From positions 1 to 51,993 of the IMG/VR virus record IMGVR_UViG_3300035071_000151: DNA of 51,993 nt; one strand, given 5' to 3'. Position numbers and translations under genes: made by a program. Below are positions 10,062 to 28,756 of this stretch, piece by piece. The notes under the pieces were generated by a model. The model was given only the letters and a program-made list of their open reading frames with translations, was not told the DNA's origin and did no database searches. The DNA is from a virus. The first letter of the stretch is position 1. Every line of letters begins with the position of its first letter.

Positions 10062-10838
10062 CTACACGCCAAATAGTTCCTTCATCGTAAGAACATGATG
10101 CATGCGATATACGAATGCCTTTTTGTATTTTACCTCCCCGGCGGGATTATATTGTTGAGCGAATATCCACTCATCATTGGCGCGGATGAAGGTCTTTATA
10201 TATCCTTCGATAGGTTTGCCTTCGCCATGCTTCAGCTGAATGATGACGCTGTCGCCGCGAAGGCAGGGACGCCCCGGATGAACGAAGCATAGATCGCCTG
10301 GTTTATGAAGGGGAAGCATCGATTCGCCCTCCACATAAATGGCGTAGGCTTGATCTATTCCTGACAACGCGGGCGGCCGAAGCACGTAGTCTATCACGTC
10401 ATTTCCTATAATGAACCCATTGGCGATGGCGCCGCAGGCCGTTCCCACGACGGGAAGGTCGCGCCGAAGATGCGTCTCGCCGAGCCCGACCTTCGCGGGG
10501 CGAATCTCGCCCGCGATGGCCTTCGCTCCCGTCTTGGTCTCCACTTCGGGCGGCGCGGGTAGGTATGCGACGCGAGGATGATCCCGGGCCACGACCTCTA
10601 TCGCTATTCGCTCGGGCGCGGGGCCTTCCGCCCTGACGATCCATTCGACCTTGGCCCTCGCGAGTTCGGCGAGCGCGACAAGCCATTCGCGGCTGATCGG
10701 TTCGCCGCGCTCCCAATTGCCAACCGCGCCGCGCGTGACCCCGAGCGCGTCGGCCAGTTCCTGCTGCGAGCGAAAACCAAGGATTTCCTTGCGGATGAAG
10801 CGGATTCGTTCGGCCATGGTGTTCATGGGCGCCATCAT
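10062..10838 (-). CDS. CI-type repressor, XRE HTH plus S24 self-cleavage domain
   Basis: Master lysogeny repressor. A DNA-binding helix-turn-helix occupies about residues 8-60 (SQQELADALGVTRGAVGNWERG). The C-terminal LexA/S24 domain has the nucleophile Ser173 in VEGESMLPL and the general base Lys215 in GYIKTF. A likely autocleavage bond is Cys135-Gly136 (VGTACGAI), a Cys-Gly site as in UmuD. RecA-stimulated cleavage after DNA damage would induce the prophage. I chose ATG 10838 (258 residues), with AGGGAG nine bases upstream; ATG 10862 is open but lacks a ribosome-binding site. The Shine-Dalgarno itself lies in an operator palindrome, suggesting autoregulation. Confidence 0.92.
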   Translation of the reverse strand: MMAPMNTMAERIRFIRKEILGFRSQQELADALGVTRGAVGNWERGEPISREWLVALAELARAKVEWIVRAEGPAPERIAIEVVARDHPRVAYLPAPPEVETKTGAKAIAGEIRPAKVGLGETHLRRDLPVVGTACGAIANGFIIGNDVIDYVLRPPALSGIDQAYAIYVEGESMLPLHKPGDLCFVHPGRPCLRGDSVIIQLKHGEGKPIEGYIKTFIRANDEWIFAQQYNPAGEVKYKKAFVYRMHHVLTMKELFGV

Positions 10839-10841
10839 GGC

Positions 10842-10926
10842 GAAAGACTCCCTTTCATTCATCGAAAGTTTTTCTTGCGGAAAAAAGAAAGCTGTGCTTT
10901 CATTCCGTAATGAAAGCAGCTCTTGA
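10842..10926. promoter_or_regulatory. Right operator array (three clear to degenerate sites plus one possible)
   Basis: Sites fitting GAAAG-N5-CTTTC: GAAAGACTCCCTTTC at 10842-10856, a degenerate GAAAGTTTTTCTTGC at 10864-10878, and GAAAGCTGTGCTTTC at 10887-10901. A weak fourth half-conserved site GAAAGCAGCTCTTGA lies at 10912-10926. Centres are 22, 23 and 25 bp apart, roughly two helical turns, as in lambdoid OR3-OR2-OR1. The first overlaps the cI ribosome-binding site, the third covers the -10 of the rightward promoter. Confidence 0.7.
10875..10903 (+). promoter_or_regulatory. Candidate rightward early promoter (PR)
   Basis: TTGCGG (10875-10880), a 17-base spacer and TTTCAT (10898-10903). 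Transcription would begin at about 10910, which is the A of the cro start codon, implying a leaderless or nearly leaderless message. The architecture copies the leftward promoter. Confidence 0.45.
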
Positions 10927-11128: not shown

Positions 11129-11254
11129 CCGGCGCCGCCTCCCCCTTTCGCGCCACTTTTGGCGCAACACCTCTTCGCGCGGATGGGCCGCGCGAGGTTC
11201 GCAGTGAGGTTGCCTCGCTTCGTAGCCCTCCTTGGGCGTTTCCTCCCTTGACTT
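11129..11254 (+). promoter_or_regulatory. Hairpin-rich leader after cro (possible nut/antitermination region)
   Basis: Two perfect hairpins precede the terminator: GCGCCA-cttt-TGGCGC at 11150-11165 and TCGCGCGG-atggg-CCGCGCGA at 11175-11195. The position between cro and a terminator parallels lambda nutR-tR1. No boxA-like element was convincingly identified. Confidence 0.35.
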
Positions 11255-11285
11255 CCCCGCGCGGCGCCCGTCGCGCGGGGCTTTT
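11255..11285 (+). terminator. Intrinsic terminator after cro (tR1-like)
   Basis: CCCCGCGCG (11255-11263), eight-base loop, CGCGCGGGG (11272-11280), then CTTTT and more T-rich sequence. It lies between cro and the next early gene, so the downstream operon needs read-through, antitermination or its own promoter. Confidence 0.7.
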
Positions 11286-11315
11286 CAATTTGTTCCTTTT
11301 TCCGGGATCGACATC

Positions 11316-13942: not shown

Positions 13943-14930
13943 TCTCGTCCGATACGATGCCGCGCGCAAGGCGCTCGAGGAAGTCCATCGCGTCGATGAA
14001 GCTAAACACATTCGCGACAAGGCGGTCGCGCTGCAGGCCTATGCGCGGCAAGCCAAGGATCGCGACATGATCGGTATGGCGACCGACATCCGCTTGCGCG
14101 CGGAGCGCAAGGCCGGCGAGCTATTGCGCTTGATGGCCGAAAATGGCGAACGCGAGACGCGCGGCGGCGACCGGAGGGCTAAGTCGCAAGACGAAACTTT
14201 GCGGCTCGGTGATCTCGGTGTGACAAAAACGCAATCTTCGCGCTGGCAACATCTCGCGCTGCTCGACCAAGAGGAATTCGAGGCGCGCGCGGAAAACGCT
14301 AAGCGCGAGGCGGTTCGCTCGGTCGAGGCGCCGGCGGCGGAACGCACGCGCGAAAAACAGGAAAAGCGCGAGACGCGCGAGCGCGAATTGGCGGTCAATC
14401 AGCGCGCGTTGCCCGAGCGGCGCTATGGCGTGATTCTCGCCGATCCAGAATGGCGGTTCGAGCCCTATTCGCGGGTCTCCGGCATGGATCGCGCGCCGGA
14501 AAATCATTATCCGACGACGGAGACCACGGGGATCGCCGAGCGCGATGTCGCGTCGATCGCCGCCGATGATTGCGCGCTGTTCCTATGGGCGACGGCGCCG
14601 ATGCTGGGCGATGGACTGCGCGTCATGAGCGCCTGGGGCTTTTTCTATAAATCGCATTTCATCTGGAACAAGAACCGCATCGGCATGGGCTATTGGAACC
14701 GCAACAAGCATGAGTTGTTGCTGGTCGGCGTTCGCGGCGAGATTCCAGCGCCGGCCCCTGGAACGCAGTGGGATTCGGTGATCGACGCGGCGATCGGCGA
14801 ACATTCGGCCAAGCCCGAAGTGTTTCTCGAATTGATCGAAAGCTATTTCCCGAATTTGGCGAAGATCGAACTCAATCGGCGCGGGCCGGCGCGGCCGGGG
14901 TGGGATGCGTGGGGGCTGGAGGCGGCATGA
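13935..14930 (+). CDS. MT-A70-family adenine N6-methyltransferase
   Basis: 331 residues. The N-terminal 120 residues are helical and shared with the preceding gene; residues 155-331 are an MT-A70 (Ime4-like) methyltransferase domain that methylates adenine N6 using SAM. The catalytic motif reads ADPEWRF, where the family consensus is DPPW; I recall DPEW in related phage enzymes, so it may remain active. Other landmarks are MDRAPENHYPT, ALFLWATAPML, WGFFYKSHFIWNKN, GMGYWNRNKHELLLVG and HSAKPEVFLELIESYFP. DNA methylation could protect phage DNA from host restriction or alter regulation. Confidence 0.9.
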   Translation: MADLVRYDAARKALEEVHRVDEAKHIRDKAVALQAYARQAKDRDMIGMATDIRLRAERKAGELLRLMAENGERETRGGDRRAKSQDETLRLGDLGVTKTQSSRWQHLALLDQEEFEARAENAKREAVRSVEAPAAERTREKQEKRETRERELAVNQRALPERRYGVILADPEWRFEPYSRVSGMDRAPENHYPTTETTGIAERDVASIAADDCALFLWATAPMLGDGLRVMSAWGFFYKSHFIWNKNRIGMGYWNRNKHELLLVGVRGEIPAPAPGTQWDSVIDAAIGEHSAKPEVFLELIESYFPNLAKIELNRRGPARPGWDAWGLEAA

Positions 14931-15478
14931 GCGTCAGCGTTCGCCATGTTTCGCTGGCCGAACAAGTCGGCGCTGTCGATCGCGCTCGGCGCGTGGTCAG
15001 CGGCGTCGCGCGGGTTTCGCCGCGCGCGATCGAGCGCGATTATGATTGCGAGGCGCTGGACGCCGCGCTGCGCACGCTCAACTGGCTGCGCGCGCATGAA
15101 GGCGAGATTCGCGCGGCGATCGCGAGGCCGCGCCGGCCCTCGGACGAAGCGGCGCCCGAGCGCGATCAAGATTTGCCGGAGCGTGAGGAAAAGCGCCGGT
15201 TCGACGAAATGCCGCTCGGAACGCAATCGGCGCTGCGGTGTCGCGGCGCGGCATTTCAAAAGTTCATCGGCGCGGGCGATTCGCAAACGGCGGCGGCGGC
15301 GGTTCGGCGCGAATGCGGCGTCGACAGCCGCGCGGAATTCGATCGCGACAATGAGGCCGCCAAGCGCTGGCGCGCGTTGGACGGACGGTTTCGCGCATGG
15401 CTGGATTGCGTGGGTGACGCGACGGACGTGCTCGCAGGAGCGGCGCGAAGCGTTTTTGCGAAGTCGGCGGCGTCGTGA
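14927..15478 (+). CDS. Hypothetical phage protein
   Basis: 183 residues, helical and charged. It opens SLAEQVGAVDRARRVVSG and continues with a long helix containing LNWLRAHEGEIRAAI, a linker, then RCRGAAFQKFIG. The N-terminal pattern recurs in early regions of alphaproteobacterial phages as far as I recall, with no known function. Start ATG 14927 overlaps the methyltransferase stop (ATGA). Confidence 0.65.
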   Translation: MSVSVRHVSLAEQVGAVDRARRVVSGVARVSPRAIERDYDCEALDAALRTLNWLRAHEGEIRAAIARPRRPSDEAAPERDQDLPEREEKRRFDEMPLGTQSALRCRGAAFQKFIGAGDSQTAAAAVRRECGVDSRAEFDRDNEAAKRWRALDGRFRAWLDCVGDATDVLAGAARSVFAKSAAS

Positions 15479-15741
15479 GTTGGGCCGCGCCGATGCGGTG
15501 GGACGCGGAAGATTATCTGTTGTCGTGGACGTTCGAGGGTGACGCCTGCCGCATATTCGTCGACGAAGCGACCACGCCGCACGCCCAGGCGCCGCGCGTC
15601 GCCGCGCTGATCGGCTTTTTGCTGACGTTCATTCAATTACGCGGCGGCTATTCCTTCGCGCGGCTTTGCGAGAAACCGCCCGGCGCGTTCGCCGCGCATA
15701 TTTGCGCCGAAATCACGAAACACATGCGGAGCGCGGGATGA
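15475..15741 (+). CDS. Hypothetical protein
   Basis: 88 residues from GTG 15475 (GTGA overlap). Mixed alpha/beta with a mildly hydrophobic helix in the middle (VAALIGFLLTFIQLRGGY) that is probably buried rather than a membrane span. Not recognised. Directly precedes the replication gene with ATGA coupling. Confidence 0.6.
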   Translation: MSWAAPMRWDAEDYLLSWTFEGDACRIFVDEATTPHAQAPRVAALIGFLLTFIQLRGGYSFARLCEKPPGAFAAHICAEITKHMRSAG

Positions 15742-16787
15742 GCATCGAAGCGCTCAATTGGGCTTTTTCGCGCAAGGAAATATCGCCGTCGGCGAAGATC
15801 GTGCTGCTGTCGCTGGCCAATTTCGCCAATGAACTCGGCGAGAGTTTTCCGTCGCAACGGGTGCTCGGCGAGCAAAGCTGCCAGTCCGAGGACAGCGTGC
15901 AGCGGCGAATAAGGGATCTTTCCGACCAAGACTATCTTTTCCGCGTCAAGCGTAAAACCCCGCAAGGGACAAGATTAACCGACCTCTATATTTTGCTGTT
16001 CGACGCCAAGTCGCGCGCCCATGCAATCGCGCATGGCTGGCAATCAGGCGCGGTCGCCGACTGTTCGTTAGAAAGAACGGATGGCGAGAACACCCAGGTT
16101 GGCGAGAACAGCCATGCCGCAGATTGCGGTATGGCTGGCGAGAAAACCGAGGTTGGCGAAAAAAACCATACCGCAACGGCGACGAAACCATGCCGCAAGG
16201 GCGACGAAACCATACCGCAACTGTGCGGTGTAGAACCAACACTTAACCATCAAAGATCCTTTTCTCCCCTACCCCTCAAGCCATCGGAGCCCGATCGCGT
16301 CCTTGAGGGGGGCGCTTCGCTCGAATCGGAGAAGCGCGCCGAATCGGCGCTCGCCGCCTGGGAACGGTTTAGGCGGGTGTGGACGTTCGACCCGACCGAA
16401 CTCCCCGAAGCGGCGCGTCGCGAGTTCTTTCGGCTCTCCAGCGAGGATCGCGACAAGGCGGTCGCCAAGGCCGGCGACTATCTCGGCGAGTGCCGCAGGC
16501 GGCTCCGCAAGGTGGCGCACGCCAAGACATGGCTCGCCAATAAGGGCTGGCAGGCGTTCGAGGTCGGGATCGGGCCTAGCGTCGTCGCCAAGGTGACGGG
16601 AAGCCAGCGGCGCCCGGACGGGGCCTGGTCGATTTACGAGGGAGGTCCGCAAGCGGCGGCTTGGGCCGATCACCTCGCGAGGATGGGCATGCCGCCGCTG
16701 AAATTCATTCGGGGCAACAGCGGGCCGGGGTTCTGTTCGCGTCCGAGCGAATGGCCGCCGCCGGCGGCGCGGGAAAAGGCGGGTTAG
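15738..16787 (+). CDS. Lambda O-like replication initiator (HTH_36 domain)
   Basis: 349 residues. The N-terminal winged helix (about 1-90) is typical of phage replication initiators: NWAFSRKEISPSAKIVLLSLAN, SFPSQRVLGEQSCQSEDSVQRRIRDL, then a beta wing. Residues 105-165 are a low-complexity linker (GENTQVGEN, GEKTEVGEKN) whose DNA encodes repeats described separately as a putative origin. The C-terminal part (about 205-349) is helical and Trp-rich and may bind a host helicase or loader. No phage helicase or DnaC-like loader follows, so host DnaB would have to be recruited directly. Initiator function is inferred from fold and position. Confidence 0.75.
   Translation: MSIEALNWAFSRKEISPSAKIVLLSLANFANELGESFPSQRVLGEQSCQSEDSVQRRIRDLSDQDYLFRVKRKTPQGTRLTDLYILLFDAKSRAHAIAHGWQSGAVADCSLERTDGENTQVGENSHAADCGMAGEKTEVGEKNHTATATKPCRKGDETIPQLCGVEPTLNHQRSFSPLPLKPSEPDRVLEGGASLESEKRAESALAAWERFRRVWTFDPTELPEAARREFFRLSSEDRDKAVAKAGDYLGECRRRLRKVAHAKTWLANKGWQAFEVGIGPSVVAKVTGSQRRPDGAWSIYEGGPQAAAWADHLARMGMPPLKFIRGNSGPGFCSRPSEWPPPAAREKAG
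16083..16232. repeat. Putative replication origin: iterons inside the initiator gene
   Basis: Three direct copies of CCAT(A/G)CCGCAA start at 16166, 16188 and 16210, exactly 22 bp apart, within longer similar units that include GGCGACGAAA. Just upstream, AGCCATGCCGCA-gat-TGCGGTATGGCT (16110-16136) is an inverted pair of the same core, and a partial inverted copy lies near 16223. A second repeat family, GGCGAGAA followed by GGTTGGCGA, occurs at 16083 and 16137. AT-richer sequence follows (16232-16260). The arrangement mirrors the lambda origin within gene O. Confidence 0.7.
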
Positions 16788-16833
16788 GCGTATGGGTGGC
16801 TGCGTTTTTCCAAGGGGTTTCGAGGGGCGCAAG

Positions 16834-17484
16834 ATGCGGAAAAATGGCAATCGTGAGAATTGGAAGTGGTTTGTGATCGAGACGTTTCCCGGCAAGGACG
16901 AGCTGTTCGATCAGCGGGCGCATGTGATCGGCCTCGTCTCGTTTCGGCCGGTCGAGGTGATTCGCGTCAGGCGCAACGGGGCTTCGTGCCGCGACATCGA
17001 TCCCGCGACCGGGATGCAGCGCGGCGAGAAGCGGCGCGAGCGCGTCGTGCCGCTGTTCGGCAGATATGTGTTCCTCAACCTTGAAATGACGGAGGAAACG
17101 CGCCGCGCGGTGTTGCGGCTTAGCGTCAATGACGTGCGGTTGGCGCGGCGCTGGCTGTGCTACGCCGGAACCGACGAACCGGCGCAAGTGCCGACGGATA
17201 TTATCGAAATGCTCGATGCGCCAATCTCGCGGGAGCAGGCGGAGGCTGGCGCGGCGTTTTCCTATCTGACCGGGCAGCGCGTTGTAATCGTTATGGGAAG
17301 CTTCACGGGCATCGAGGGCGTGGTGAAGGAGTTTGACAAGCGCGGAAATCTGGTCGTAGAAATCATGCTGCTAGGTCGCGCTACACCACTGCCCCTCAAA
17401 GTAGCGCATGTGCGTCCCCGTTCGTCAGAGGCCGAGCCTTCGGCGGGTCGCGCATCGGACAGCCTCCTGAGCCAGACGGCTTAA
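16834..17484 (+). CDS. NusG/RfaH-like transcription antiterminator
   Basis: 216 residues. NusG-family proteins bind RNA polymerase through an NGN domain and keep it elongating. Here the NGN domain spans about 9-125 (WKWFVIETFPGKDELFDQR, then PLFGRYVFLNL, the counterpart of the PxFPGYxFV signature). A KOW domain follows at about 143-190 (LTGQRVVIVMGSFTGIEGVV). The start is ATG 16834 with GAGGGG six bases upstream; ATG 16792 is open but poorly spaced. It is the last early gene, immediately before a strong terminator and the packaging genes, the position of a late antiterminator such as lambda Q. Confidence 0.85.
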   Translation: MRKNGNRENWKWFVIETFPGKDELFDQRAHVIGLVSFRPVEVIRVRRNGASCRDIDPATGMQRGEKRRERVVPLFGRYVFLNLEMTEETRRAVLRLSVNDVRLARRWLCYAGTDEPAQVPTDIIEMLDAPISREQAEAGAAFSYLTGQRVVIVMGSFTGIEGVVKEFDKRGNLVVEIMLLGRATPLPLKVAHVRPRSSEAEPSAGRASDSLLSQTA

Positions 17485-17525
17485 GCGGGCGGGTGCGAAG
17501 CTATTCAGGTTTGCCATCGGGATGA

Positions 17526-17557
17526 CCCGGGCGCGTTTGGTGACGCGCCCGGGTTTT
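17526..17557 (+). terminator. Strong intrinsic terminator before the late genes
   Basis: A perfect 10-bp stem, CCCGGGCGCG (17526-17535) and CGCGCCCGGG (17544-17553), with an eight-base loop and TTTT following. It separates the NusG-like gene from the HNH/terminase operon, so late expression would need read-through or a promoter further on. Confidence 0.85.
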
Positions 17558-17588
17558 CGTTTGTCGCGGGGCGCGTGGGGCGGCGGTG

Positions 17589-17906
17589 ATGGCTCTCAAG
17601 ACGCTTGGGCCAAGGCTCGCGGCCGCTCCCCGCTCGCGCATCGCGCGGCTGCCGTCGGAAGGCGGCAAGAACGCGGCGGTCTACCAGTCGCCGGAATGGC
17701 GCGCCTTCGTCGGCGAGATCAAGCGCGAACGCGGATGCCGCTGCGAGGATTGCGGCGAGACCGAGGGCCGCATCCAAGGCGACCACATCATCGAAATTGA
17801 AGACGGCGGGGCGGTGTTCGACAAGGCCAACGTCCGCCTGCGCTGCACCCCCTGCGGCAACGCCAAGACGGCGCGAGAGCGCCGCGCAAGAATGGAACAT
17901 GGGTAA
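17589..17906 (+). CDS. HNH endonuclease-like protein
   Basis: 105 residues. A zinc-ribbon pair CRCEDC and CTPC flanks the core GDHIIEIEDGGAVFDKANVRLRC, giving the first His and the Asn of an HNH (beta-beta-alpha-metal) nuclease. The final His, normally in CHxxKT, is replaced (CGNAKTARERR), so catalysis may use another residue or be reduced. HNH proteins beside terminase genes are required for packaging cleavage in several cos phages (established for HK97 gp74). A GTG lies three bases before the ATG used. Confidence 0.85.
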   Translation: MALKTLGPRLAAAPRSRIARLPSEGGKNAAVYQSPEWRAFVGEIKRERGCRCEDCGETEGRIQGDHIIEIEDGGAVFDKANVRLRCTPCGNAKTARERRARMEHG

Positions 17907-18070
17907 CGCCTGTAATCGGCTGACCTCGTGGCGGCCGGAGCGTTGATTTATGTCAACGGGGGTATGGGGTTAGATTTAGCAAATCGCCAAATTGCTGCAA
18001 TCGGGCACACACCAAGCCAGAGATTTTTTGGCTTTGAAATCCTTGAGAAACTTTTTTGCCGGAGGGGCGG
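17907..18070. other. Non-coding region upstream of terS, candidate cos site
   Basis: No gene fits. It holds short symmetric elements: CGTTGA-tttatg-TCAACG (17941-17958) and GATTT-agc-AAATC (17973-17985), and an A/T-rich tail before the terS ribosome-binding site. A gene-free gap between HNH and the small terminase is where cos lies in HK97-type phages. This is a positional guess. Confidence 0.35.
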
Positions 18071-18547
18071 ATGGCCAGAGGGGCGCGTAAATCACCGAGC
18101 ATCTCGCCCGACTTGCTGCAGTCGCGGGAGGCCCGCGACTTGTGGGCGAAGCTTCATGCGGATCTCGACTCCGCGCGGTTTCTCGCGCGCACGGATCACG
18201 CCGCGCTGGCCCGCTATTGCACGTATCTCGCCGACTGGATCAAATTCACCAAAGTCCTCGAAAAGGAGGGCATGACTTACGTGACCTCCTCGGAGCATGT
18301 GAAGGACATGGTTCGCGCCCGCCCCGAGGTCCGCTTCCGCCGCGAGTGCGAGGCCAACCTCCAGTCCCTTGAGAACGTGCTCGGCCTCAACCCGCGCTTT
18401 CGCTTCGCGCTGACGACCGCGCTGTTGTCGCAACAGGCCGGCCTCGCCCCGCCTCCCGCCGAGCTGCCGCTCGACGCGCCGGCCCAGCCGGGCGACGCCG
18501 CGTCGGAGTGGGAGCGCCTGCTCGCCGGCTCCGCGACCGCGCAATGA
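18071..18547 (+). CDS. Small terminase subunit (P27-like)
   Basis: 158 residues. The small subunit recognises phage DNA and recruits TerL. The helical core ARDLWAKLHADLDSARFLARTDHAALARYC, then LADWIKFTKVLEKEGMTYVT and LNPRFRFALTTALL, matches the P27-family small-terminase pattern. The tail is Ala/Pro-rich. Start ATG 18071 follows GGAGGGG. The methylase gene overlaps its stop as ATGA. Confidence 0.85.
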   Translation: MARGARKSPSISPDLLQSREARDLWAKLHADLDSARFLARTDHAALARYCTYLADWIKFTKVLEKEGMTYVTSSEHVKDMVRARPEVRFRRECEANLQSLENVLGLNPRFRFALTTALLSQQAGLAPPPAELPLDAPAQPGDAASEWERLLAGSATAQ

Positions 18548-19271
18548 CGCCGCCGCGACGGATCGAGCGGCTCTCCGACGGCGTGACGCTCCACCTCGGC
18601 GATTGCCGCGAGATCATCGCCGAACTGCCGCCTTGCGCGGCGGTGATAAGCGACCCGCCCTATGGGATTAACTTCGCGCACTCGGGGGGGGGGGGCGAGG
18701 AATCGCCGGCGGAAAATACAAGACAGCGTTCGCGGGTGAATTCATCATAGGTGACGACGCGCCCTTTGACCCTCGCCCCTTCCTCGATCTCGCGCCGCAT
18801 TTGATCCTTTGGGGCGGCAATCACTTCGCCAATCAGCTGCCGGCGTCTCCCTGCTGGTTCGTTTGGGACAAGCGCGCCAAGAGCGAGCATTCCAATAGCT
18901 TCGCCGACTGCGAGATCGCCTGGACAAACCTCGGAACGCCCGCGCGAGTCTTTCGCCACCATTGGGACGGCATGATGCGCGACTCGGAAAAGGGAATCGC
19001 GCGCGATCACCCGACGCAAAAGCCGATCGCCCTTATGCGCTGGTGCATCGAAAAAGCCGGCGTCGAAATTGGCCGCACCATCCTCGACCCCTTCATGGGC
19101 TCCGGCACGACCGGCGTCGCCGCCGTGTCGCTCGGTCGCAAATTCATCGGGATCGAGATCGAGGAAAAATACTTCGACATCGCTTGCCGCCGGATCGAGG
19201 CCGAACTCGCCCGCCCGCGGCTCGACCTCGAACCGCCCGCCGCGCCGCCGCGACAAATCGCGCTGCTGTGA
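18544..19271 (+). pseudogene. DNA methyltransferase interrupted at a G12 tract (frameshifted or phase-variable)
   Basis: Reads as an adenine/cytosine-N4 DNA methylase split into two frames. The first frame, from ATG 18544, has LHLGDCREIIAELP and the catalytic SDPPYGIN, then stops at 18750. The second frame supplies [40 protein letters not shown] and the SAM-binding [18 protein letters not shown]. They join at a run of 12 Gs (18684-18695): one extra G, loss of two, or a -1 ribosomal slip gives HSGGGGRGIAGGKYK and an uninterrupted protein of about 240 residues. Either a sequencing error, a decayed gene, programmed slippage, or a phase-variable switch. Confidence 0.85.
18684..18695 (+). repeat. 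Homopolymer of twelve Gs
   Basis: Located in the coding sequence of the methylase where the protein needs a glycine run. With 12 Gs the frame is off; 10 or 13 would restore it. Such tracts slip readily during replication and are also error-prone in sequencing. Confidence 0.95.
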
Positions 19272-19294
19272 CGAACCCGCCCCGGAGCCAGCCC

Positions 19295-19534
19295 ATGACA
19301 AGCGCCACGGTCGACGGCGGCCACCTAAAATCCTTCATCGAGCGAATCGAAAAACTCGAAGAGGAAAAAGGCGCCATCGCCGACGACATCAAGCATGTCT
19401 ACGGCGAGGCCAAGGGCAATGGCTTCGACCCCAAGATCATGCGCAAGATCGTTTCGCTGCGCCGCCAGGACAAGGCCGAGCGCGAGGAAGAGGCCGAACT
19501 CCTCGACCTCTATCTCGCGGCGCTCGGCATATGA
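19295..19534 (+). CDS. gapR: GapR-like nucleoid protein (DUF2312/UPF0335)
   Basis: 79 residues, nearly the whole family length. [46 protein letters not shown] followed by [11 protein letters not shown] is the textbook DUF2312 pattern. GapR of Caulobacter forms a ring around overtwisted, AT-rich DNA ahead of replication forks and stimulates topoisomerases. The family is characteristic of alphaproteobacteria. GGAG lies seven bases before ATG 19295. A phage copy in the packaging operon could organise phage DNA or replace host GapR during replication. Confidence 0.9.
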
Positions 19535-19553
19535 GCGCGGCCAGCTCGCCGCC

Positions 19554-19706
19554 ATGACCTACCGATGGTTCGCCTACGTCCTCCATTCGCTGCGCGCCGA
19601 TTACGAGCGCGCCGGCTGGACCTTCTCCGCCGAACTCCGTCTGCCGCACGCGCGCTATTCCGTCCTGATGGAATGGACCGGCGAAGGCGACCCGCCCCGC
19701 CCGTGA
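19554..19706 (+). CDS. Small conserved phage protein
   Basis: 50 residues: MTYRWFAYVLHSLRADYERAG then a beta-like segment ending RYSVLMEWTGEGDPPRP. The final 'SVLMEW' block is one I associate with small proteins near terminase genes in alphaproteobacterial prophages. Function unknown. Confidence 0.55.
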   Translation: MTYRWFAYVLHSLRADYERAGWTFSAELRLPHARYSVLMEWTGEGDPPRP

Positions 19707-19915
19707 GCCAGGCGCTTGACGAATCCCGAAGCGAAACGAACCACGGGCAAAGCCGCGCCAACCCACGATGCGGCGCGCGGACACGGTTCGGATTAGGCGC
19801 GCGCCGCGCGGATCGGCGCCTGCTCGCGGCGAATGGGCGGCGAGCCAAGTTTCGAATTCCGCCAGCGCCTATGGCTAGACGACGGGGCCGCAACGCGATC
19901 CGACCCCTATCGTGA
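19703..19915 (+). CDS. Possible small basic protein (weak)
   Basis: 70 residues from GTG 19703, which overlaps the previous stop as GTGA, the coupling used throughout this genome. The product is Arg-rich (RADRRLLAANGRRAKFRIPPAP) and resembles no known family. It fills the gap precisely up to the next ATG at 19923. The alternative is that the next gene starts at 19833 in another frame and this one is not translated. Confidence 0.35.
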   Translation: MSQALDESRSETNHGQSRANPRCGARTRFGLGARRADRRLLAANGRRAKFRIPPAPMARRRGRNAIRPLS

Positions 19916-19922
19916 CTGGCGG

Positions 19923-20201
19923 ATGCGTCGCCGTGCCAACCCCGGCTTCCCCATGATCATCGACTCCCTCTGGCGCGCCTTCGCCGCCGAATTCGTCCCG
20001 GCCGACATGCCCGACGACGCCCGCGAGTCCGCCAAAACCTGTTTCTACGCCGGCGCTGACGCGCTGTTCGCCGAACTCACCACGACGCTCGAACCCGGCG
20101 AACAACCGACCGAGGCCGACATGGCGACGATGGGCTCCATCCAGCAGGAGCTGACGGCCTTCTTCGGCGAAGACGCCCCCGCCCCCGCCACCCCGCACTA
20201 A
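19923..20201 (+). CDS. Conserved phage protein before terL
   Basis: 92 residues. The core (IIDSLWRAFAAEFVPADMPDDARESAKTCFYAGADALFAEL...) has the WxxF-x-VPADxP-x-FYAGA arrangement of an uncharacterised phage family that I associate with genes beside terminase. ATG 19833 in the same frame would add 30 residues (MGGEPSFEFRQ...), without a ribosome-binding site. Its stop directly abuts the terL ATG (TAAATG). Confidence 0.6.
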   Translation: MRRRANPGFPMIIDSLWRAFAAEFVPADMPDDARESAKTCFYAGADALFAELTTTLEPGEQPTEADMATMGSIQQELTAFFGEDAPAPATPH

Positions 20202-21944
20202 ATGCCCCCCTGGTCGTTCGCCGTCCCCGATTGGGAATCCCGCATCCGGCAGGGAAAGCCCCTCCTCCCGGACCTCCCGCTCTTTCCCGACCAGGTGGAG
20301 CAAGCCCGCGGCGTCTTCAACCGCCTGCGCCTCGGCGACGTGCCGGGCAAGCCGACGATGGAGCAGGCCTGCGGCGAATGGTTCCGCGATTTCGCCCTCG
20401 CCGTGCTCGCCAGCGTCGATCCCGCCACCGGCCGCCGCATGGTTCCCGAGGCCTTCCTCGTCGTCCCGAAGAAAAACAGCAAGACCACCGGCGGCGCGCT
20501 GCTGATGCTGACCGCGCTGCTCGCCAACCGCCGCCCCAACGCCGAATTCCAGCTCATCGCGCCGACCCAGCTCATCGCGGAGCTGGCCTTCAGCCAAGTG
20601 CTCGGCGCGATCTCCGCCGACGCCTATCTCGCCAAAATGCTGCATGTGCAAACACACAAGAAGCAGATCACCGATCCGCGCACGCTGGCCTATCTGCGCA
20701 TTAAGAGCTTCGACCCCAAGATCCTCACCGGCACGCGCTCCGCCGGCACGCTGCTCGACGAAGTGCATCTGCTCGGCAATGAGCACGAGGCCGATCGCGT
20801 CGTCCGCCAGCTTCGCGGCGGCATGATCAGCCAGCCCGAGGCCTTCTTCGTGATGATCACCACGCAAAGCGAGCGGCCGCCCGCCGGCGTGTTCAAATCC
20901 GAGCTGGCCCGCGCCCGCGACGTGCGCGACGGCAAGCGCGACGAGGCCATGCTGGCCGTGCTCTACGAATTTCCCGACGCGATCCGCGCGGCCCGCAAGG
21001 ATCGTGATGGCGTCTACGCCTGGGAAGACCCAAAACTGTGGCCGATGGTCACGCCAAACCTCAACCGCTCGATCTCGATCGGCGCGCTGATCTCGCTCTA
21101 CAAGAAGGCCAAGGGCGACGGCGAAAGCGAACTGATCGGCTGGGCCTCGCAGCATCTCAACATCGAGGTCGGCCAGCAGCTCCGCGCCGACCGCTGGGCC
21201 GGCGCCGATCTCTGGCAAGGCGCGATCGACAAGAAGCTCGCCAGCCTCGACGATCTGCTGGAGCGCTGCGAGGTCGTCACGGTCGGCATGGACGGCGGCG
21301 GCCTCAACGATCTGCTCTCGCTCGCCGTGATCGGCCGCGAGCGCGGTGACGGCGACGTGTTCCGCCGCCGCTGGCTCTGTTGGACGCATAGCTGGGCCTA
21401 TACTTCCGTGCTCGAGCAAAACAAGCAGGAAGAGCCCAAGCTCCGCGACTTCGAAAAGGCCGGCGAACTGACCATCTTCGACCAGATGGGCGACGACATC
21501 GACGAACTGACGCAAATCGTCGTGAAAATCCACGAAACCGGCCTGCTCTCCCAGGTCGGCGCCGACGCCGCCGGGGTCGGCTCCTTCGTCGACTCGATCT
21601 ACGCGGCGATCTTCGGCGGCGACCAGCCGCCGGAGGACGAAGACGCGCTGGTCGTCGCGGTGCCGCAAGGCTACCCGCTCCAGCAGGCCAGCAAGACCTG
21701 CGAGCGCCGCCTCGCCGATCGCCGCCTGCTGCACGGCGGCCAGGGCATAATGACCTGGGCGGTCGGCAACGCCAAAACCGAAATGCGGGGCAACGCCATG
21801 TATATCACCAAGGCGGTTTCGGGCTCCGCCAAGATCGATCCGCTGATGGCGCTGTTCGACGCGGCCTTCCTAATGGCCCGCAACCCGCAGACGCGCGACC
21901 TGAGCATTTATACCGCCGATCGCGGCCTGGCGGTGTTCGGTTGA
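20202..21944 (+). CDS. Large terminase subunit (HK97-like TerL)
   Basis: 580 residues. The packaging motor and nuclease. The ATPase half has Walker A VPKKNSKT (88-95) and Walker B TLLDE (183-187) preceding the coupling motif ITTQ. The nuclease half begins near 360 with VGMDGGGLNDLLSLAV, continues with GADAAGVG, and ends with DPLMALFDAAFLM, matching the RNase H-like fold. The protein has the full length and order of PF03354-type terminases. The portal begins inside its stop codon. Confidence 0.95.
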   Translation: MPPWSFAVPDWESRIRQGKPLLPDLPLFPDQVEQARGVFNRLRLGDVPGKPTMEQACGEWFRDFALAVLASVDPATGRRMVPEAFLVVPKKNSKTTGGALLMLTALLANRRPNAEFQLIAPTQLIAELAFSQVLGAISADAYLAKMLHVQTHKKQITDPRTLAYLRIKSFDPKILTGTRSAGTLLDEVHLLGNEHEADRVVRQLRGGMISQPEAFFVMITTQSERPPAGVFKSELARARDVRDGKRDEAMLAVLYEFPDAIRAARKDRDGVYAWEDPKLWPMVTPNLNRSISIGALISLYKKAKGDGESELIGWASQHLNIEVGQQLRADRWAGADLWQGAIDKKLASLDDLLERCEVVTVGMDGGGLNDLLSLAVIGRERGDGDVFRRRWLCWTHSWAYTSVLEQNKQEEPKLRDFEKAGELTIFDQMGDDIDELTQIVVKIHETGLLSQVGADAAGVGSFVDSIYAAIFGGDQPPEDEDALVVAVPQGYPLQQASKTCERRLADRRLLHGGQGIMTWAVGNAKTEMRGNAMYITKAVSGSAKIDPLMALFDAAFLMARNPQTRDLSIYTADRGLAVFG

Positions 21945-23239
21945 GCGGCCCCTTGACCGGGCGCCGCGCCGATATCGAGCGCTCGCAATCGTTCCTGCGC
22001 TCGATGGACTCCAACACCGACGAACAGCTCTGGTCCGCGACCTATATGGTCTCGCAGACCAATTCCGGCATGAACGTCAGCCAGGTCACGGCGCTCTCCT
22101 GCGCCGCGATCTTCGCCTGCGTCTCGATGCTGGCGGAAGACGTCGCCAAGCTCCGCCCACTGTTCTTCAAGCGCCGCGACGATGGCGGACGTGATCTCGT
22201 CACCAATCACTGGCTGCCCACGCTGTTTCGCCGCCCCAACGACTTCCAGAGCGGCTTCGAATTTCGCGAAATGCTGATGGTTCAGCTTTGCCTGCGCTCC
22301 AACGCCTTCTCGGTCATCATCCGCAACCGCGCCGGCCGGCCGATCAAGCTGATCCCGGTCAATTCCGACCGCGTGGCGATCTGGGAAGCGCCGACCGGCG
22401 ATCTGTTCTACCGCGTCACGCCGCTCGGCTTGCACGAGCGCGCCGAGCTGATCAATGAGCCCTTCCTGATCCCGGCGGAAGACATCCTCCACATTCGCGG
22501 CCTGTCGATCAACGGCCTGCTCGGCGCCGCCCGCATCGTGCTCGGCAAGGAGGCCATCGGCCTGTCGCTGGCCTATGAGAACCAGGCGGCGCGCTGGATG
22601 GGCGGCGGCTCCAAGCCCTCGGGCATTCTGACGACCGACAAGAAGCTGACGCCCGAAGCCGCCAAGCGCATGTCGGCCGACTGGCGCGAACAGCAGGGCG
22701 GCCCGCAAAATGTCGGCAAGGTCGCCGTGCTGGAGCAAGGCCTCAAATATCAGACGATCGCCTTCGACGCGGTGCAGATGGATTTCATCAAGTCGCGGCA
22801 ATATCAGCTCGAGGAAGTCGCGCGGCTGCTGCGCATCCCGCTCTACATGGTCGGCGGCGCGCAGGGCGGCAAAGGCGCGAGCGGTTCGATCGAACAGCAG
22901 GCGACCGAATATCTCAACTACACGCTGACCGGCTACACCTCGCGCTTTCGCGAGAAATATGACCTCGCCTTCGACATCGAGGGCGAGGGCCTCGAGCTCG
23001 ATTTCGACTACGGCGTGCTGACCCGGGCCGACCAATCGACCCGCTACACCAATTATTCCAAGGGCATCGCCGGCGGCTATCTGACGCCCAACCAATGCCG
23101 GATCGACGACGGCCAAAACCCGCTCCCCGGCGGCGACAAGCTATGGATGCCGAGCAACGTCGCTTACGCGGGCAGCCACGCGAGCGGCCTGTTGCCGGAC
23201 GGCGGCGGAAGGCCAGCGGGAAGCGAGAATGTCGAATGA
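21941..23239 (+). CDS. Portal protein (HK97 family)
   Basis: 432 residues. Forms the dodecameric ring at the capsid vertex through which DNA passes. Recognisable portal blocks: NVSQVTALSCAAIFACVSMLAEDVAKL, RNRAGRPIKLIPVN, LHIRGLSINGLLGA, RQYQLEEVARLLRIPLYMVGG, and a Gly/Pro-rich C terminus ending GDKLWMPSNV. It starts at TTG 21941, overlapping the TerL stop as TTGA; no better start is seen before the conserved region. Confidence 0.95.
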   Translation: MSGPLTGRRADIERSQSFLRSMDSNTDEQLWSATYMVSQTNSGMNVSQVTALSCAAIFACVSMLAEDVAKLRPLFFKRRDDGGRDLVTNHWLPTLFRRPNDFQSGFEFREMLMVQLCLRSNAFSVIIRNRAGRPIKLIPVNSDRVAIWEAPTGDLFYRVTPLGLHERAELINEPFLIPAEDILHIRGLSINGLLGAARIVLGKEAIGLSLAYENQAARWMGGGSKPSGILTTDKKLTPEAAKRMSADWREQQGGPQNVGKVAVLEQGLKYQTIAFDAVQMDFIKSRQYQLEEVARLLRIPLYMVGGAQGGKGASGSIEQQATEYLNYTLTGYTSRFREKYDLAFDIEGEGLELDFDYGVLTRADQSTRYTNYSKGIAGGYLTPNQCRIDDGQNPLPGGDKLWMPSNVAYAGSHASGLLPDGGGRPAGSENVE

Positions 23240-27137: not shown

Positions 27138-27249
27138 CCAGTTTCCCGCGACAGGCGGCCCTGCTTCGCGCTTCAAAGGCGCGGACGGCGCGAACGCGCG
27201 CCGGGTGAGGGGCAAGTTTCACCCAAGACCTCGTTCAAAGGAAAATCAG

Positions 27250-28692
27250 ATGTCTCTCATCCTTGATCTCAAGAAGACGCGATCCAACGCTCTCAAAAAG
27301 CTTGGCTCCGACGAAGCCGTTCACGATTCGACTCTCTACGCGTCGCTCGAAGCCGAAATCGCCGAACTCGACGCCAAGATCGGCCGCGCCGTCAAGGCGC
27401 GCGACCTCGCCGCGGCCGACGCCCGCCCGGCCAACGGCCACGCCGACGAAGAGGGCCAGGAAGGCGTCGAAGGCTATGACAACGACGCGCCGGTGGCGCG
27501 CGATGTCGAGCAACTGGCGTTCGAGCGCGGCGCGCAGCGCGGCGCCGCGACGCGCGATCTGGCTTATGGCTCCGCCGCGCAATCCTTCGCCAGCAAATTC
27601 GAGCGCAAGGTTTCGATGGCGCGCGCCGCCAGCGGGATGCGCCTCAACAAGGGCAAGCATTTCCGCTCGCTCGGCGAGCAGCTGCAGGCGATCAAGACCT
27701 ATTACGAAAGCCGCGGCTCCAACACCGACGCGCGCCTTGTCCGCGCGCCGACCGGCGCGGGCGAAGTCGATCCGACCGGCGGCGGCTTCCTGGTCCAGAC
27801 CGATTTCGCGACCGCCATCTTCGAGATCGCCCACGACATGGGCGAAATCCTCGGCATGGTGAACAAGATTCCGATCGGCGACAAATTCAACGGCATCAAA
27901 ATCCCCGGCGTCGACGAAACCAGCCGCGCCACCGGATCGCGCTGGGGCGGCGTCCAGTCCTACTGGACCGACGAAGGCACGAACCCCGGAGCCTCGAAGC
28001 CGAAGTTCAAGATGATCGAATTCAGCCTGCATAAGCTGATGTCGATCATGTATACGACCGACGAATTGCTGCAGGATTCCGTCGCCCTGACCGCGATCGC
28101 CTCTCAGGCGTTCTCGGAAGAAGTCATGTTCATGACCGAGGACGCGATCTACGAGGGCACGGGCGCGGGCATGCCGAAGGGCATTTTGGGATGCTCCGCC
28201 CAAGTGACCCATGCGGCGGAGACCGGCCAGAAGACGCAGACCATCGTCAAGGAAAACATCGACAAGATGTGGTCGCGGCTTTGGGTGCGCAGCCGCAAGA
28301 ACGCGGTCTGGCTGATCAGCCAGGACATCTTGCCGCAACTGTTCGCGCTCAACCAGGCGGTCGGCACCGGCGGCCAGCTCGTGTTCATGCCGCCCGGCGG
28401 CCAGTCCAGCGCGCCCTACGCGACGCTGTTCGGGCGTCCGGTGATCGAGAACGAATATTCGCCGACGCTCGGCACGTCCGGCGACATCATGCTCGCCGAT
28501 CTGTCGCAATACACGCTGGTCGACAAGGGCGGCGTCCAGGCGGCGACCTCGATGCACGTGGCGTTCCTGACCGATCAGCAGGTATTCCGCATCACCTATC
28601 GCGTCGACGGCAAACCGATGTGGACCGCGCCGATGACGCCGTTCAAGGGCACGAACACCCGTTCGCCCTTCGTCGCGCTGGCGACGCGCTAA
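27250..28692 (+). CDS. Major capsid protein (HK97 fold)
   Basis: 480 residues. The N-terminal delta domain (about 1-120) is helical and charged and would be removed by the protease. The capsid fold follows, with GGFLVQTDFATAIFEIAHDM, FSLHKLMSIMYTTDELLQDSVAL, GTGAGMPKGILGC, FGRPVIENEYSPTLGTSGDIMLADLSQYTLVDKGG and RVDGKPMWTAPMTPFKG, all typical of HK97-like capsids. ATG 27250 has AAGGA seven bases upstream. Confidence 0.95.
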   Translation: MSLILDLKKTRSNALKKLGSDEAVHDSTLYASLEAEIAELDAKIGRAVKARDLAAADARPANGHADEEGQEGVEGYDNDAPVARDVEQLAFERGAQRGAATRDLAYGSAAQSFASKFERKVSMARAASGMRLNKGKHFRSLGEQLQAIKTYYESRGSNTDARLVRAPTGAGEVDPTGGGFLVQTDFATAIFEIAHDMGEILGMVNKIPIGDKFNGIKIPGVDETSRATGSRWGGVQSYWTDEGTNPGASKPKFKMIEFSLHKLMSIMYTTDELLQDSVALTAIASQAFSEEVMFMTEDAIYEGTGAGMPKGILGCSAQVTHAAETGQKTQTIVKENIDKMWSRLWVRSRKNAVWLISQDILPQLFALNQAVGTGGQLVFMPPGGQSSAPYATLFGRPVIENEYSPTLGTSGDIMLADLSQYTLVDKGGVQAATSMHVAFLTDQQVFRITYRVDGKPMWTAPMTPFKGTNTRSPFVALATR

Positions 28693-28756
28693 CCCGATCA
28701 ATCGCGGCCGGGCGCGCCCGGCCGTTTCCCTGTCCCAAAATCCATAGGAGCCCCCG

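Follow-up and report, generated by a model that had tools for sequence, protein, structure and literature searches.

The window, which is the whole 51,993-nt stretch of DNA analysed here (IMG/VR record IMGVR_UViG_3300035071_000151), represents a temperate siphophage with an integrase at its left edge, a rightward early region, and then a long late operon. The final gene of the early operon, nusG, encodes a NusG-family protein and lies directly in front of an intrinsic terminator. Beyond the terminator come genes for an HNH endonuclease, the small and large terminase subunits, the portal, and the capsid, all on one strand. The features relevant to our analysis were as follows:

10062-10862, minus strand: CI-like repressor
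11218-11294, plus strand: homologue of the MmgR/suhB sRNA (Rfam RF00519, 47 bits against a gathering threshold of 41)
15666-16787, plus strand: HTH_36 or O-like replication initiation protein (Pfam HTH_36, 1.5e-11; PHROG 1032, 5e-16), the upstream neighbour of nusG here and in relatives
16834-17484, plus strand: NusG-family gene (NGN + KOW), 216 amino acids, identified from Pfam, PHROG 6386, NusG matches in the PDB, and a KOW barrel in the AF2 model
17468-17483, plus strand: candidate hairpin A (TGAGCC-AGAC-GGCTTA), 6 pairs, overlapping the nusG stop codon; relatives have equivalent hairpins of other sequence before GCGNAGC
17495-17501, plus strand: GCGAAGC mini-hairpin motif, a candidate loading element (P = 0.006 for the window alone)
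17524-17555, plus strand: intrinsic terminator with a 14-pair stem and the tail TTTTCGTTT
17586-17906, plus strand: HNH endonuclease, the first gene past the terminator (Pfam HNH, 3e-6; PHROG 589, 2e-20)
18056-18547, plus strand: terminase small subunit (Pfam Terminase_4, 2e-16)
20202-21944, plus strand: terminase large subunit (PHROG 9, 1e-91)
21941-23239, plus strand: portal protein (Pfam Phage_portal, 3e-81)
27205-28692, plus strand: major capsid protein (Pfam Phage_capsid, 7e-47)
28705-28724, plus strand: a further terminator-like hairpin, downstream of the capsid gene and within the late operon

An earlier note on this DNA had called an NGN plus KOW gene starting at 16834, followed by a strong terminator and then by the packaging and structural genes, and each of these elements was borne out. 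The open reading frame also has an alternative start at 16792 (16792-17484, plus strand, 230 amino acids), and the ATG at 16834 is as good a start, with a GAGG-type ribosome site. The Pfam NusG model matched the protein at 27.6 bits against a curated cut-off of 22.2 (E = 4e-6), which accounts for the NGN domain, and PHROG 6386, annotated as 'transcription antiterminator', matched at 2e-16. The KOW domain by itself scored under its Pfam threshold (13.4 vs 22.3). The AF2 model was poor as a whole (pLDDT 57), and within it residues 161-210 formed a beta-barrel with a local pLDDT of 77-86 that superposed on the C-terminal domain (CTD) of E. coli NusG (2jvv) at 1.5 Å. The KOW domain keeps the stretch LGRATP, of which the counterpart in housekeeping NusG is FGRATP. 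When compared with solved structures, the protein alone matched NusG at 3e-5 and RfaH at 0.08, and the family profile matched NusG in the PDB at 4e-21. In a phylogenetic tree, housekeeping NusG was separate. Judged by its sequence, the window protein is a diverged member of the NusG family, and homology suggests that it binds the clamp helices of RNA polymerase. We also observed that the NusG proteins of four relatives (L049, L051, L052, and L053) extend past the KOW domain in a basic, RRQKRKRSERH-like tail, which perhaps binds nucleic acid.

The terminator behind nusG ranked first among the candidates on both strands of the 52 kb, with a score of 28.9 as compared to 22.1 for the next, and the hairpin after the capsid gene ranked third (21.6). 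Relative to the window, the stem in sister contig L002 has the compensatory changes G17529C and C17550G at paired positions, and also A17525G, which retains a G-T pair. Because these changes preserve pairing, the terminator hairpin is very probably under selection. The 39-nt leader in front of it is identical in the two contigs. Only 30 nt separate the terminator from the HNH start codon, and in relatives the last terminator usually ends ~5-15 nt before that codon, leaving no room for a promoter, so the HNH gene would need read-through. Farther downstream, a run of ~12 G at 18684-18696 breaks a DNA-methyltransferase-like frame; L002 differs at this spot, and the run reflects either phase variation or a sequencing error.

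With the window protein as the sole query, we obtained one near copy and otherwise almost no matches, and profile A1 was too diverged for scanning. Relatives were instead reached through gene order in named Bradyrhizobium phages. Unrecognised NusG proteins occupied the same slot in ppBeUSDA76-1, where the gene is annotated 'ABC transporter substrate-binding protein', and in ppBdUSDA122-1 ('hypothetical'). We then searched 266 genomes from the genus to which Bradyrhizobium viridifuturi belongs with a profile, and this added many prophages. Nearly all Bradyrhizobium phage and prophage loci had the order replication protein, NusG, HNH, small terminase, large terminase, portal; the exceptions were L228 and L229, which had no detectable late genes. 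The arrangement extended to ppBjS10J-1, in which NusG precedes packaging genes of another terminase and portal family, to Labrenzia phage vB_LagS-V1, in which it lies upstream of the packaging genes, and to phage yong2 (deposited as a Microcystis phage), in which it precedes packaging genes accompanied by gpW-type head genes. The NusG proteins of different lineages are ~20-30% identical. The recurring layout consisted of a replication gene, NusG, one or more terminators, HNH or the small terminase, the large terminase, and the portal. NusG was found at the early/late junction in at least five diverged lineages without exception, and in most of them the strongest terminators were found there as well.

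At 23 of 25 loci, the gap between NusG and HNH held the top-scoring terminator of the surrounding region (6 kb to each side), a count that includes several close relatives as well as L018-L020, where the gap exceeds 1 kb. Up to four terminators stand in tandem in this gap in L003. Our scorer takes loops of ≤ 8 nt and missed longer ones in L022 and yong2, resulting in an undercount there. Paracoccus phage Pthi1 has the same neighbours without NusG, and with this scorer its gap held no strong terminator. The protein that fills the NusG slot of Pthi1 is not NusG, and neither is the product of a gene considered in a Pseudomonas phage. Another observation concerns a Pseudomonas phage (L009:4339-5303) in which a PHROG 3412 protein, with no assigned function, is followed by two strong terminators; this protein is perhaps an unrelated antiterminator.

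We next consider the leader between the nusG stop codon and the terminator. Of 15 lineages, 9 have GCGAAGC close to the stop codon, as compared to an expected 0.47 (P = 1e-10, which overstates independence given that the loci are related). A hairpin scoring ≥ 12 lay ahead of the motif in all 16 of 16 leaders, as compared to 30% of control sites. An extended leader pattern matched four times in 342 genomes, three of them in phage NusG leaders, and the reversed pattern had no match. The stretch read around the fourth match, in G190, contained no NusG gene, and this match was counted as chance. Across leaders the motif takes the form GCGNAGC, where N is A, C, or G, and in Bradyrhizobium phages it is flanked by pairs. 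In Bradyrhizobium phages the leader is more strongly conserved than nusG itself: between L006 and L035 the leader is 90% identical and the NusG protein 60%, with the terminator sequence exchanged. GCGNAGC was absent from L018-L020, L056-L057, L021-L024, and the Labrenzia phage.

In the window, the motif stands in the context GGGTGCGAAGC(T)ATTC, shared with L052, and the element is imperfect, having T-T at the flanking pair of GCGAAGC and an RNA that prefers another fold. Covariation in the alignable leaders was thin, with one pair changed on both sides and 79 of 500 shuffles doing equally well; support for the hairpin comes mainly from diverged leaders that cannot be aligned. On this comparative evidence, the hairpin together with GCGNAGC is the best candidate for a loading site, common to most lineages and weaker in the window. 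The element could be read either as nascent RNA or as non-template DNA. As DNA, the heptamer d(GCGNAGC) folds into a mini-hairpin of unusual stability. Two further details were observed in relatives: the leader element of L049 falls within coding sequence, and L051 and L052 carry the palindrome GTTTCACGTGAAA, which is near the bacterial parS centromere site, ~20 nt past GCGAAGC and just ahead of the first terminator.

Several known antitermination systems offer points of comparison. Lambda Q loads at the promoter PR', between the -35 and -10 elements and with a sigma-dependent pause, and the tR' terminator precedes the late genes. The phage locus shares with Q its place at the early/late junction, a terminator straight before the late genes, and, by analogy, late genes that would depend on passing it. 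In contrast, Q belongs to a separate protein family, as only NusG-type families were matched in Pfam and PHROGs, and Q loads at a promoter of a kind that our sigma-70 consensus scan did not find at 14000-22000. The earlier note had likened the architecture to lambda Q and its terminator, which fits in position only, as Q loads at a promoter and the phage terminator shares a transcription unit with nusG. In having the terminator just past nusG in the same unit, the window is more like lambda N or the LoaP leader. In the Caulobacter gene transfer agent, GafZ binds between -10 and -35 and draws on the NusG of its host (PMC11150451). The system offers a parallel as an alphaproteobacterial, phage-derived late cluster under antitermination with NusG in the complex, although GafZ itself is not NusG-like. 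PHROG 6386 is annotated 'transcription antiterminator' and also matches housekeeping NusG, with no late-gene role or leader element described.

By analogy, the phage layout most resembles that of LoaP, a NusG paralog of Bacillus velezensis that binds an RNA hairpin in a leader followed by an intrinsic terminator in antibiotic operons (PMC12691694). Both combine a NusG paralog with a short leader in which a small hairpin and then an intrinsic terminator precede a long operon, with the hairpin weak in the window. However, the LoaP hairpin has a UNCG loop, whereas the phage leader loops are ATTC, TTGATC, TCCG, GNA, and others, none of them UNCG. Moreover, LoaP serves antibiotic operons, whereas here a hairpin with GCGNAGC stands before phage late genes. 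RfaH is likewise a specialised NusG paralog of long operons, and it is recruited by ops, a mini-hairpin in non-template-strand DNA with a closing C-G pair (PMC5995543), which GCGNAGC could mimic. Nevertheless, the CTD of RfaH is a helical hairpin, whereas that of the window protein was modelled as a beta-barrel with good local confidence, though it may still switch folds, and the window sequence is closer to NusG; the RfaH label given earlier is therefore not upheld. No ops sequence GGCGGTAGCGTG (≤ 2 mismatches) was present closer than 7 kb, and its count in the window was the same as in shuffles. A loading site had been predicted upstream of 17526, and the hairpin element at 17468-17501 lies where it was placed, but no ops-like site does.

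Starting from the gene, its terminator, the gene order and its recurrence in diverged phages, and the leader element conserved in relatives, we consider it likely that the phage has a specialised NusG of its own, the window protein, working as a late-gene antiterminator loaded at the leader. Since unrelated viruses repeat the layout of NusG, terminator, and packaging genes, the protein probably serves as the switch by which polymerase enters the late genes. The earlier note had proposed a late-gene antiterminator, and this is the best reading of the recurrent junction position and terminators once its RfaH and ops parts are set aside. RNA polymerase from a rightward early promoter would transcribe the replication genes and then nusG, and without the NusG-like protein it would halt at the terminator right behind nusG. 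Once the protein had reached a sufficient level, its NGN domain would bind polymerase transcribing the leader, with the leader hairpin and GCGNAGC as guides in the form of either non-template DNA or nascent RNA. Polymerase modified in this way would then pass the terminator at 17524-17555, and others in the late operon, to reach the HNH, terminase, and structural genes. In this scheme we infer three steps: polymerase binding, terminator read-through, and use of the leader as the loading site.

An alternative is that the terminator merely closes the early operon, with a late promoter elsewhere and the phage NusG acting elsewhere. Terminators are normal at operon ends, and any early operon could have one. 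The gap between HNH and the small terminase (17907-18055, 149 nt) is AT-rich and promoter-sized, and a late promoter inside HNH is also conceivable. Yet such a promoter would leave HNH itself without one except by read-through, and a scan restricted to the sigma-70 consensus among promoter types found no sigma-70-like promoter at 14000-22000. This alternative also leaves unexplained both the fixed placement of nusG and terminator in many lineages and a leader that is conserved beyond the gene. We regard it as unlikely. Under the same alternative, the phage NusG might shield phage transcripts from Rho or host NusG, and LGRATP in its KOW domain makes ribosome or Rho contacts possible; we find this version similarly improbable.

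The protein could also bind the hairpin of the leader or of the terminator and so exert feedback control over its own early operon, instead of acting as a processive antiterminator. The element and terminator sit right behind nusG, and RNA-hairpin binding is known for NusG paralogs (LoaP, PMC12691694). However, a downstream site can hardly limit transcription of nusG itself, and the strong terminators separate nusG from essential packaging genes, making this explanation very improbable. Least credible is a horizontally acquired passenger without a dedicated target: the window lineage does stand alone on its own long branch, but nusG differs from that of L002 by 6 synonymous and 4 amino-acid changes (proteins 98% identical), reading frames are intact in all NusG relatives, and the same slot is kept across unrelated packaging types.

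A late switch built from NusG would, if true, constitute a viral role for specialised NusG. Reviews of NusG paralogs cover surface, toxin, antibiotic, and plasmid operons (PMC7819879, PMC6391919), and we found no description in the open-access literature of a phage NusG as a late antiterminator or regulator. More broadly, alphaproteobacterial phages may have repeatedly recruited NusG paralogs loaded by an undescribed leader element, constituting a third class besides ops and the LoaP hairpin. This reading draws on a covarying hairpin with a GCGNAGC mini-hairpin just before tandem terminators, possibly acting as non-template DNA like ops, and we hold it tentatively. Temperate rhizobial phages would offer a ready genetic system for studying such a switch. 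As nusG, its target terminator, and the candidate loading site lie within ~800 bp, a single small reporter could accommodate the circuit, and swaps among the many naturally diverged pairs of protein and leader would reveal what the protein recognises.

The pattern GCGGTAGCG...GTTTCCTCCCTAGACT between the terminators of Bradyrhizobium phages was considered as an ops-like site and rejected. Rfam identified it as the MmgR/suhB sRNA (RF00519), and it is also present in many unrelated phage contigs, so it is not a NusG site. The homologue in the window is intergenic, with the CI-like repressor on one side and the early operon on the other, and its terminator is outscored in the window only by the one behind nusG. 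In several Bradyrhizobium phages and prophages, an sRNA of this family lies between the NusG terminator and HNH (L045:2321-2401, L048:2529-2609, L051:2268-2346, L058:2252-2332, and others), and the sRNA terminator ends a few nt ahead of the HNH start codon. This arrangement resembles PR', 6S RNA, and tR' of lambda, and by this analogy the late leader could double as a trans-acting sRNA. The MmgR core GTTTCCTCCCTWGACT was found in at least 120 IMG/VR contigs (L103-L182 among them), some by chance, often with a terminator-like hairpin immediately after it, and the MmgR sRNA family seems to be widespread in phages.
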